Of a stretch of 58,981 bases of DNA, positions 1 to 42,905 are shown one piece after another. The position numbers were made by a program, and so were the translations under genes. The stretch covers positions 1 through 58,981 of the forward strand of contig NZ_JAKLTR010000028.1 in assembly GCF_022012415.1 (NCBI RefSeq), written 5' to 3'. The notes under the pieces were generated by a model. It did not search any database. It was given only the letters and a program-made list of their open reading frames with translations, and was not told where the DNA came from. Numbering within the stretch: the first letter of the stretch is position 1; the number at the start of each line of letters is the position of its first letter. Source of the DNA: Terrimonas ginsenosidimutans. Lineage in GTDB: Bacteria > Bacteroidota > Bacteroidia > Chitinophagales > Chitinophagaceae.

Positions 1-81
1 CGCCTTGCCCGTCCGGCAAAAATGTAAACAGAGTCTTCGAGGCCCCCTCGAAAAACAGCGCCCTTGCCTGCCCGGCATCCC
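1..81 (-). repeat. Partial copy of a composite hairpin-rich intergenic repeat (copy C)
   Basis: Read on the minus strand this stretch contains the module GCCGGACGGGCAAGGCG, a TCGAGG/CCTCGA-type hairpin and the box GACTCTGTTTAC. The same modules in the same order occur in the inverted pair at 40016-40905. The copy is cut by the window edge and ends at the stop codon of the glycosyltransferase gene that follows. Translations of this stretch are low-information and I do not regard them as genes. Confidence 0.75.
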
Positions 82-39297: not shown

Positions 39298-39520
39298 TTA
39301 AAAAAAATAACTGACCTGATTTATCAAGTCTTTTATAAAAATCGGTAGATTAGTGGAAGAATAATTGCAGCAGCAATTCTTTCTTAGACTATATACTGTT
39401 AAGCACGACTTTTCCCCCATTCAGCATTTTATTTTCTATTGATTGATCCTGCGCGATATTATAGCTCCGGGATCCATGATTCATATTATTCACCGCGGCA
39501 AGCCGCTCAAAATATTTATT

Positions 39521-40015
39521 ATGACAACATCAGCATTGGCAATTGTTAATCCCCGTTATTTTCTTAACAGGCTCGCACTGGAGCATTCTGCGGATTGTCT
39601 TTCACTTGAGCCCAAACAGGTTATTCAGCAGTTATTTGCTAAAACGCCTTTACCGGTAATGCAGGAAATGTTCGAAGAGTTTTGCGAAGCAGCTGTTGCT
39701 CCTGCCTGTTATTGGCCGGGTCGCAACCCGGAAGTGTTGCTGAAGTTCAGTGAGGAAATGGAAAAGCTTATCGAATCATGCTATCTCCTGTATCGTGACA
39801 AGCGGAGGCGGCAAGATGCTGATCATCCTGCAGAGATCAAACAGTTTTTCACTGTGTATTCGTTAGCCGATTGGAAACGGATCTTGCGCGACTGGGTGCG
39901 TGCGGCATTATCAGTCAACAGTGTTGCAGAGACGGGGAATCCAAAAGAAATGATCCCCTTTGTTAATGGGATGGAGAAATTGATGAAGTCGATGGGGGAG
40001 TTTGCGAGGTACTAA
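39521..40015 (+). CDS. Hypothetical protein, unknown family
   Basis: A 164-residue soluble, helical protein with no signal peptide or membrane segment. Visible features are a Pro- and Tyr-rich start (MTTSALAIVNPRYFLNRLAL), a segment with two Cys residues (FCEAAVAPACYWPGR), and acidic and basic stretches (SYLLYRDKRRRQDADHP-like). The second half is helical (WKRILRDWVRAALSVNSV). The ATG at 39521 is preferred over a longer in-frame start whose extension looks like noncoding sequence. I do not recognise a family. The gene is followed at once by the composite repeat, with no separate terminator. Confidence 0.6.
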   Translation: MTTSALAIVNPRYFLNRLALEHSADCLSLEPKQVIQQLFAKTPLPVMQEMFEEFCEAAVAPACYWPGRNPEVLLKFSEEMEKLIESCYLLYRDKRRRQDADHPAEIKQFFTVYSLADWKRILRDWVRAALSVNSVAETGNPKEMIPFVNGMEKLMKSMGEFARY

Positions 40016-40440
40016 CCGTCATTTTTCGACGGCGGTCGGGGCGCTTTTTTCTTTTGCGGGGGAAGGAGTTTTTTTTAACGGGAGCGTTGAGGGCTCTGTT
40101 TGGAGTTTGCCGGACGGGCAAGGCGCTTTTTTTTTCGAGGGGTTGCCTCGAAGACTCCGTTTACTTTTTTTGCCTTGAGGCAAAAAAAGTAACAAAAAAA
40201 GATCAAGGCTACGCGCAAATAGCCAGCCCCGCACTCGATGCGGGGGCTAAAAATTATGGGCTTCACCTGGCACTAAAATAAACTCGCCGGAAGAATGTTT
40301 TGGAATTGATTGGCGTGCTGGCTCAGACAATATTTTAGCGCCCTCGCCTTCGGCTCGTCGGTTACGCCCATAATTTTTTTAACGCCATTTGCGCTATGCC
40401 GCCCCCTCTTAAAGCGGGGAGAAGGCCTTTATAGAAATGT
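40016..40440 (+). repeat. Composite hairpin-rich repeat, copy A
   Basis: Starts at the stop codon of the unknown gene. In order it contains TTTGCCGGACGGGCAAGGCG, a TCGAGG...CCTCGA hairpin, GACTCCGTTTAC, the perfect 14-bp hairpin TTACTTTTTTTGCC-TTGA with its complement at 40161-40192, then AACAAAAAAAGATCAAGGCT, then a longer part with TTCACCTG, CTCGCC, GGCTCAGACA and AACGCCATTT. Copy B repeats the same series on the opposite strand. Confidence 0.8.
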
Positions 40441-40539
40441 AGCCTAACGGTTTTCGCTGGCTTTATTTCTTCTTTAGCATAAAAGTTAACTCTTCAAATT
40501 ATAATACAGAATCGGAACTATAACGAATCTTCTCCGCAA

Positions 40540-40905
40540 AAGCCTCCCCCTCTCTCAACGCCCCCGGCCTTGGAAAAAATGGCGTTAAGAAAATGGGAGG
40601 CTGGCACCGTCTGAGCCACACCGCAGGTGTGCGAAGGCGCCAAAAACTGTCTGAGCCCAACACGCCATTCAATCCTAAACCTGGACGGGCGAGTTTTTTT
40701 GGTGCAGGTGACATCCTCCCATTTTTAGCCATTTTTTCCCAGCCTTGATCTTTTTTTGTTACTTTTTTTGCATCAAGGCAAAAAAAGTAAACGGAGTCTT
40801 TCGACCTCCCGTCGAAAAAAAACGCCTTGCCCCTCCGGCAAAAAAACCGAAGGCCCCTTTCAATTCTCCCATCGAAAAAAAAGCGCCTTGCCCGCCCGGC
40901 AATCT
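40540..40905 (-). repeat. Composite hairpin-rich repeat, copy B (inverted)
   Basis: Read on the minus strand, the modules come in the same order as in copy A: two GCCGG...GGCAAGGCG modules, GACTCCGTTTAC, the poly-T/poly-A hairpin at 40759-40790, AACAAAAAAAGATCAAGGCT, then the GGATGTCACCTG, CTCGCC, GGCTCAGACA and AACGCCATTT boxes. It ends about five bases before the stop codon of the head-GIN gene. Divergence from copy A is substantial outside the hairpins. Confidence 0.8.
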
Positions 40906-40909
40906 TCCA

Positions 40910-41614
40910 CTATATCACTACTTTATTCCGCTTCGTAACAGTTCCGCCTCCTTTATTCTTCACACCGCCGAGGCCGGAAGACTTCATCTTCAAACTTTTT
41001 TCCGCGTTCACTTCAGCGCCACCAATGCCGTTATTATCGATGTCCATCGTCTGCACAACAAATTTCGCTGCTTCAAGGCTGCCTACTGATTTGTTTCGGA
41101 TCACGGCATTATCAGCTTTACCTTCCAGTTCCAGGTTACCCACACTTTTGTTTTCCAGGTCAAGGGAACGCGCAGACAACTTCAATTCTACATTACCAAC
41201 GCTTGAATTGTTCATCTTCAGATCGTCAAAGGTAAGCGTGCCCGTGGTGGTGATGTTGCCAACGGTTTTCAGATCAATTGATTTCAGCTGTTTGAACGTG
41301 ATATAAACCGTCATATTCTTTTTTGACTTGATATTCGTATGCTTCTTCATATTGACAGTTAATCCATCTTCGCTTTGCTCTACCTGTATCAGTTCCTGGA
41401 GATTGTCTTCTGCTTCAACCTTTACAGCTTCTGTGCTCCCCTGGGACAGAACCACGTTAAAGACACCGCCAACGGTAAGCCGACTGAATGACTTCACTGG
41501 AACATCCCTCGTGATCACATTTCCACTGCCTTCATACTTTTCATTTTCCTGTGCTTTAACCGTTCCAGGGAGGGTCATGGCTGTAATTGCAAGCATTGCT
41601 AACATCTTTCTCAT
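40910..41614 (-). CDS. Secreted head-GIN domain protein (DUF2807)
   Basis: A 234-residue exported protein. Residues 1-21 are a signal peptide (TVKA-QENEK). The rest is a DUF2807 repeat-like beta-helix: SGNVITRDVPVKSFSRLTVGGVFNVVLSQG starts the domain, followed by VEAEDNLQELIQVEQSEDGLTV and then regular turns such as LKTVGNITTTGTLTFDDLKMNNSSVGNVELKL. The GNV/GNLE/GSLE repeats mark the coils. The family is envelope-located and its role is not settled. The stop codon is about five bases from repeat copy B, so no separate terminator is visible. Confidence 0.9.
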   Translation of the reverse strand: MRKMLAMLAITAMTLPGTVKAQENEKYEGSGNVITRDVPVKSFSRLTVGGVFNVVLSQGSTEAVKVEAEDNLQELIQVEQSEDGLTVNMKKHTNIKSKKNMTVYITFKQLKSIDLKTVGNITTTGTLTFDDLKMNNSSVGNVELKLSARSLDLENKSVGNLELEGKADNAVIRNKSVGSLEAAKFVVQTMDIDNNGIGGAEVNAEKSLKMKSSGLGGVKNKGGGTVTKRNKVVI

Positions 41615-42706: not shown

Positions 42707-42783
42707 GATGGCCGATGGCCGATGACCGATGGCCGATGACCGATGGCCGATGACCGATGGCCGATGACCGATGACCGATGACT
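42707..42783 (+). repeat. Heptamer array GATGRCC x 11 (left arm)
   Basis: Eleven units of GATGGCC or GATGACC (the last ends in T) in perfect 7-base register, starting on the base after the TGA stop codon of the flavin reductase gene. Confidence 0.92.
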
Positions 42784-42851
42784 CCATTAGGATTCAAGTT
42801 ATCGCTGCCAGTCTGTATAGATGATCCCGTCTGATAGATCTGTGTATTTTC

Positions 42852-42879
42852 GGCCATCGGCCATCGATCATCGGCCATC
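42852..42879 (-). repeat. Heptamer array GGCCATC x 4 (right arm)
   Basis: GGCCATC, GGCCATC, GATCATC, GGCCATC, the reverse complement of the left-arm units, about 70 bases away. The spacer between the arms has no further repeats. Confidence 0.85.
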
Positions 42880-42905
42880 GATAAGAGCAAGAGTACGTTC
42901 AAAAT

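Follow-up and report, generated by a model that had tools for sequence, protein, structure and literature searches.

The window, i.e., the whole analysed stretch of 58,981 nt from Terrimonas ginsenosidimutans, contains at positions 40016-40905 a repeat element which fills the spacer between the stops of two convergent ORFs, ORF 39443-40015 (+) and ORF 40910-41614 (-), the latter encoding a DUF2807 protein. The original prediction placed the edges of this element within a few bases of stop codons, and indeed its start directly abuts the stop of the left ORF, while its end is situated 4 bases short of the right ORF. The two diverged, inverted halves that had been described are recovered as arms of 73 nt (40151-40223 and 40728-40800) with 90% complementarity, accompanied by several more inverted pairs and by an inverse match of the element to itself (query 632-894 vs 40059-40347, 73% identity, E 3e-34). 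Serial hairpins are present as well, namely TTACTTTTTTTGCCT/AGGCAAAAAAAGTAA, the GCCGG/GGCAAGG modules, and the TCGA modules. The element is composed of two related units of ~230 nt each, A on the plus and B on the minus strand, which are arranged tail to tail with hairpin modules of ~60 bp on the outside (Table 1). The partial copy reported for positions 1-81 matches the end modules and is located at the contig start, and thus represents a copy cut by the assembly. A second dispersed repeat, made up of tandem GGCCGATGACCGAT-like words and an inverted piece, is found at 42707-42880 of the window, with many copies on other contigs.

Table 1. Coordinates of the units, stems, and modules of the repeat element in the window
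Feature	Position	Strand	Remark
End modules of another copy	1..81		At contig start
Left end modules	40016..40157		Diverged ~60-bp repeats: GCCGG..GGCAA and TCGA..TCGA hairpins, then T runs
Unit A	40158..40402	+	Match to family model R1, 128 bits
Hairpin P1 of unit A	40161..40192	+	Loop CTTGAG in the window copy vs CTTGAT in other aligned copies
ATCAAGG, partner of the P1 loop of unit A (pseudoknot-like pairing)	40202..40208	+	
Conserved stem of unit A, 5' strand	40245..40261	+	GGC-TAA-AAATTATGGGC
Conserved stem of unit A, 3' strand, including extra unpaired bases	40366..40386	+	GCCCATAATTTTTTTAACGCC
Central spacer between the 3' ends of units A and B	40403..40564		Contains the most variable part among copies
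Unit B, tail to tail with unit A	40565..40793	-	R1 match, 147 bits
Hairpin P1 of unit B	40759..40790	-	Loop partner 40743-40749 (CCTTGAT on the + strand)
Right end modules	40794..40905		Same kind as left end modules, inverted

In the T. ginsenosidimutans genome (G000; 7.14 Mb, 64 contigs), 18 near-full-length copies, that of the window included, and many partial ones were identified, which supports the proposed dispersed composite family with modules in constant order. The 17 near-full-length copies other than that of the window are 82-92% identical. Alignment of the 18 copies reveals nearly invariant blocks and a variable centre; the end modules differ in number and sequence yet keep their hairpins, e.g., TCGAC..GTCGA vs TCGAGG..CCTCGA. 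At some loci a second, partial copy follows head to tail. Assembly is interrupted by the repeat, with at least 19 of 128 contig ends (13 starts and 6 ends, the first 81 bases of the window among them) situated inside copies. All 18 copies for which both neighbouring ORFs were readable, four further copies at contig ends being left out, are situated between ORFs, of which 6 pairs are convergent, 3 divergent, and 9 co-directional. Filling of a convergent spacer therefore holds for the window copy, but is not a property of the family.

A DNA search of 59 genomes, comprising that of T. ginsenosidimutans and its relatives, gave matches in 18 of them. Outside of T. ginsenosidimutans, these matches span ~30-70 bp around a hairpin with the loop CTTGAT, and a ~30-bp piece (query 566-597) was additionally matched in G002 and G028. 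Several relatives carry a single unit of ~170-250 nt, others the head alone or little more. A covariance model (R1) built from 18 units of 9 genomes matched 108 of 244 genomes of the organism's family (63 of 101 genera) and 102 of 395 genomes of a phylum sample (51 of 171 genera), where the weaker matches perhaps comprise the head only, since a local match can reach across the model with as little as 50-100 nt. At E<=1e-15, 60 of the 244 family genomes and 31 of the 395 phylum genomes were retained. Due to strict filters and the few candidates scored per genome, R1 copy numbers are lower bounds. Several genomes contain tandem same-strand arrays in spacers with steps of roughly 290-360 bp. A spacer holding several units can be followed by one that contains no unit.

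When named genomes were scanned with a head pattern, the matches listed included Elizabethkingia, Chryseobacterium, Kaistella, Leeuwenhoekiella, Flavobacterium, Mucilaginibacter, Bacteroides luti, Parabacteroides, Cytophaga, Taibaiella, and Edaphocola, as well as MAGs named Balneolaceae, Chlorobiota, and Calditrichaceae. This pattern also occurs on three viral contigs, and a plasmid search with one unit gave no match. The P1 head was also seen in front of a different, shorter hairpin (GGCAAA..GCTCC..TTTGCC-like; L014, L051, L054, L056, and L090:2445-2523), and may be a module shared by longer and shorter elements. A rough regular expression applied to 133 head matches among those listed classified 58 as long, 1 as short, 64 as unclassified, and 10 as cut, so that a split into a long unit and a shorter head-only relative is unproven by these classes. 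The original observation is right but understated: the window element represents a lineage-specific composite form of a folding repeat that occurs phylum-wide.

The unit starts with hairpin P1 of variable arms, followed by an A-rich linker and the motif ATCAAGG, which pairs with the P1 loop, and continues with the long stem P2, a conserved asymmetric internal loop, the variable stem P3, and inner stems. In L016, L038, and L049, units occur in which a further stem bearing an internal loop of this kind is nested. Covariation was evaluated for 142 matches from 72 chosen sources, comprising 133 distinct units, 131 of which have a length of at least 150 nt. In the 133 distinct units, standard pairs make up 92.8% of 4275 cells of the structure including the loop pairing. 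The alignment of copies for compensatory changes, which had been suggested as a check, gave a positive outcome: changes on both sides occur at 27 of 33 pairs and in 837 cells, compared to a mean of 227 in shuffled controls (0 of 500 reach 837) and 120-207 with a slid structure, an effect whose size is inflated because relatedness persists in the shuffle control and because part of the structure, the loop pairing excepted, served to fit the alignment. Despite this inflation, the slid control supports the stems. Further pair types are at the level of the shuffles (82 vs 79.1; 102 of 500).

In case of the last loop pair, TA (89), AT (20), and CG (13) are observed, and the evidence for the loop pairing comes mainly from this one position and from outliers, e.g., L129:12533, in which loop and partner both read differently from other units. 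The internal loop is kept, with TA on one side in 114 of 133 units and CTTAAC or TTTAAC on the other side in 82 of 133. Due to the retention of these imperfections, repair to perfect palindromes alone is unlikely to explain the pattern.

Compensatory change in the units is plentiful and nearly without wobble, above all on the listed strand. In the paired columns of R1, 3172 Watson-Crick, 28 G.T, 59 A.C, and 238 other cells were counted, and with one unit per genome (51 genomes) the numbers are 1243, 12, 24, and 91, respectively. RNase P RNA of the same family (29 of 30 searched genomes; consensus fold) shows 2086 Watson-Crick, 286 G.U, 30 A.C, and 106 other cells, although the two alignments were built by different methods. 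If the units are subjected to the same MAFFT and consensus-fold treatment, only 6 pairs are obtained, with 769 Watson-Crick, 7 G.T, 7 A.C, and 9 other cells. An alignment-free count of minimum-energy folds yielded a G.U share of 3.2% of pairs for the units (shuffled 11.2-11.5%) and 11.7% for RNase P RNA (shuffled 12.9-14.1%); for the complementary strands these shares are 7.6% (shuffled 15.6-16.5%) and 7.9% (shuffled 11.0-11.9%), respectively. The near absence of G.T from covarying helices points to folded DNA, rather than RNA, being under constraint or undergoing mutational correction, and it does not bear out the stress that the original prediction laid on a long paired transcript. The complementary strand wobbles more, as seen from the excess of A.C over G.T in the R1 columns and from its G.U share in the folds, which comes close to that of the RNase P complementary strand; this leaves room for a weakly wobbling RNA from that strand. 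Strand-symmetric counts of isolated mismatches (G.T/A.C) were discarded as a discriminator of DNA and RNA, since units and RNase P RNA are not separated (14/16 and 8/5 with flank 4; 122/204 and 74/55 with flank 3) and chance stems dominate.

Presence and absence of the element differ by site between congeneric species. At one site of G356, two tandem units are located in ~0.84 kb between conserved flanks, which are ~125 bp apart in G562, ~0.7 kb in G277, and 14 kb in G468, and lie on different contigs in G522. At a second site of G356, three tandem units occupy ~1.4 kb; the flanks are separated by ~90 bp in G562 and in G277, and by ~200 bp in G468 and G522. Due to the fact that the empty sites differ by more than the element and that not every comparison is clean, loss or array expansion may also account for these differences. 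In G001, a different gene is situated to the left of the orthologue of the right-hand gene of the window, and the spacer contains a plain terminator-like hairpin. A comparison of L023 with G001 as an empty site was discarded, since the flanks are not syntenic in G001. No clear target-site duplication was found at the copies, the ends of which are not sharply defined, and the flanks of copies in one genome remain similar beyond the unit.

Within 300 bp of the 142 units, 83 ORFs point with their 3' end toward the unit and 48 away from it, counts which are not independent because units of one array have common neighbours. A replication-strand bias was considered and set aside, as unit strands are mixed in six single-contig genomes, too few for a test without a known origin. 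Judged from translations, units and tandem arrays fill the spacers of apparent polysaccharide biosynthesis clusters in L137, L138, and L129 (G330, G593, and G527); in G527 most units are situated just behind gene ends and antisense to the genes. In L119/L136 (G298) and L125 (G587), a unit is also located between two genes whose translations resemble an excisionase and a tyrosine recombinase, and which in both genomes belong to one kind of integrated mobile element. When 340 ORFs from the vicinity of units of many genomes were compared only with each other, those that recur were XRE-type regulators (near four units), epimerases of polysaccharide loci, ABC-type ATPases, and the mobile-element gene set of G298 and G587. 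The related XRE-type regulator gene is situated within about 1 kb of the unit in four genera (L064, L070, L072, and L073).

A source element carrying a transposase, for which a search had been proposed, was not found: none of the 35 ORFs nearest to the 18 T. ginsenosidimutans copies scores above cut-off for transposase, integrase, or recombinase Pfam families. Their products are commonplace, such as DnaJ, Clp protease, TonB receptors, and TilS, and 3 of the ORFs match no family. In the tests made, the repeat was assigned neither to a known REP family nor to an annotated transposon, and further copies do exist. A description of the repeat family was not found among the open-licence papers searched; papers beyond these may describe the family.

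REP/BIME/REPIN elements with their RAYT (TnpA_REP) transposases resemble the repeat in being intergenic, dispersed, palindromic, multi-copy, also arranged as inverted pairs, and possibly acting as folded single-stranded DNA. PMC3733652 and PMC6006769 describe REPs as short (20-40 nt) palindromes with a GTAG/GTGG foot, whereas the units have a length of ~170-250 nt, lack a conserved foot of this kind, and possess loop pairing and internal loops. In the 18 aligned units no conserved GTRG was present at the foot of P1. Membership in REP/RAYT was thus rejected on unit length, on the foot, and on the flanks of Y1 genes (see below). In case of L009 (G000:C2:19463-22807), a Y1 transposase gene is preceded by two near-identical hairpins (GCCCACGATT..AATCGTGGGC), the nearer of which directly follows GTAG; from its sequence this locus looks like an ordinary RAYT/REP pair unrelated to the folding repeat.

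Integron attC sites are large imperfect hairpins which are defined by structure more than by sequence and contain conserved unpaired bases. The units share the large imperfect hairpin, the conserved unpaired bases, and the likely folding at the DNA level. On inspection, however, they lack the R boxes RYYYAAC/GTTRRRY at the stem ends, and their CTTAAC/TTTAAC forms the unpaired side of the internal loop rather than a paired terminal box. The integron integrase model TIGR02249 is matched above cut-off in 1 of 244 genomes, and matches with E<=1e-20, nearly all of them below cut-off, occur in 226. The sole match above cut-off (G194) has an internal stop, and many tyrosine recombinases of 300-450 aa score below cut-off with their TIGR02249 match broken into two pieces, often close to the end of a contig. 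Integron-like cassette arrays, as hinted by the same-strand clusters, were rejected, because the neighbours that were read are mostly ordinary chromosomal genes and the integrase is that rare. Bacterial MITEs are similarly short, non-coding, dispersed, and of inverted structure, but for the repeat neither a clear target-site duplication nor a parent transposon was found, and its fold is conserved across the phylum sample. With the structured bacterial RNAs of Rfam it has in common covarying helices, pseudoknot-like pairing, and a length of ~200 nt; in contrast to these, it has almost no G.U pairs and reaches the gathering score of no family, neither at 39900-41000 of the window nor at 13 loci.

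Taken together, we consider the repeat a non-autonomous interspersed element of the Bacteroidota that acts and is maintained as folded DNA, a reading to which we assign a probability of about 0.5. A single strand, or the arm of a cruciform, would form P1, the loop of which would pair with bases just downstream, next to the long stem bearing the conserved asymmetric internal loop. A trans-acting protein would recognise this folded strand and move or multiply the element, and the tail-to-tail pair of A and B with a variable number of end modules would be the spreading form in T. ginsenosidimutans. We suggest, though only tentatively, that the element is moved by a dedicated single-strand recombinase or transposase. 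It is tempting to speculate, with considerable doubt, that bacteria possess, beside REP/RAYT and attC/IntI, a third mobility system based on folded single-stranded DNA, in which a so far unrecognised enzyme of the Bacteroidota would read a pseudoknotted, internally looped DNA hairpin and, by moving or multiplying it, give rise to dispersed copies, inverted pairs, and tandem arrays. The repeat differs from both REP and attC in the features compared above; its likeness in working to these folded-DNA elements is more secure than what the repeat itself is.

Alternatively, the repeat might be a BIME-like chromosomal binding or boundary element, which binds a nucleoid protein, gyrase, or polymerase, or ends transcription at gene ends, and which spreads by ordinary recombination and slippage without a dedicated enzyme. 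This is in agreement with the location of all scored T. ginsenosidimutans copies between ORFs, the preference of ORF 3' ends for the unit side (with the dependence of counts mentioned), the tandem arrays in spacers, and the plain terminator-like hairpin that occupies the G001 spacer. We regard it as rather unlikely, since one G356 site retains a terminator-like hairpin alongside its units, half of the scored copies (9 of 18) separate co-directional ORFs, and the conservation of an internal loop across the phylum sample goes beyond what a terminator requires. Still less probable is a structured RNA, either a small RNA or an mRNA element consisting of a hairpin, an H-type pseudoknot with an A-rich third loop, and a long stem. 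The geometry does resemble an RNA pseudoknot, and strong covariation, the pseudoknot-like pairing, and the higher wobble of the complementary strand fit such an RNA; the near absence of G.U compared to the RNase P control, the missing Rfam match, and the mixed orientation of units relative to neighbouring ORFs argue against it.

The lowest probability is given to a REP-like element moved by a Y1 (RAYT/IS200-type) transposase, e.g., of Bacteroidetes subclass 2.6, for which PMC6006769 describes atypical, weaker flanking structures. HUH enzymes recognising folded hairpins are a known way of working, and Y1 transposase genes are common, being present in 184 of 244 family genomes. Considering all R1 matches, they are slightly more common in genomes with the element (88 of 108; element only, 20) than in those without (96 of 136; neither, 40; Fisher p 0.053), but this association is gone if only strong matches are considered (46 of 60 vs 138 of 184; neither, 46; p 0.86). 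The 14 of 60 genomes with strong matches that lack a Y1 match include G148, G164, and G262 with 9 scored element matches each. Furthermore, only 1 of 22 Y1 loci contains a unit in the examined stretch, and this unit is separate from the transposase ends; 20 of these loci were among the best-listed Y1 matches of element genomes (~3 kb on each side, two shortened by contig ends) and the remaining two are those of T. ginsenosidimutans itself (~1.5 kb on each side). Its Y1 protein L010, nearest to subclass 2.6 by the motifs NHLH and YIHENP, has neither the unit nor a strong hairpin beside it, the Y1 gene L318 is followed by a different repeat, and the foot of P1 has no conserved GTRG. It is therefore very improbable that a Y1 enzyme moves the element.

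The comparison of wobble pairs provides a simple way of asking if a covarying fold is maintained at the level of DNA or of RNA. If the repeat acts as folded DNA, as we favour, it would serve as a natural probe for the time and place of single-strand folding in the living cell, and would point to an unknown protein that binds this DNA fold.
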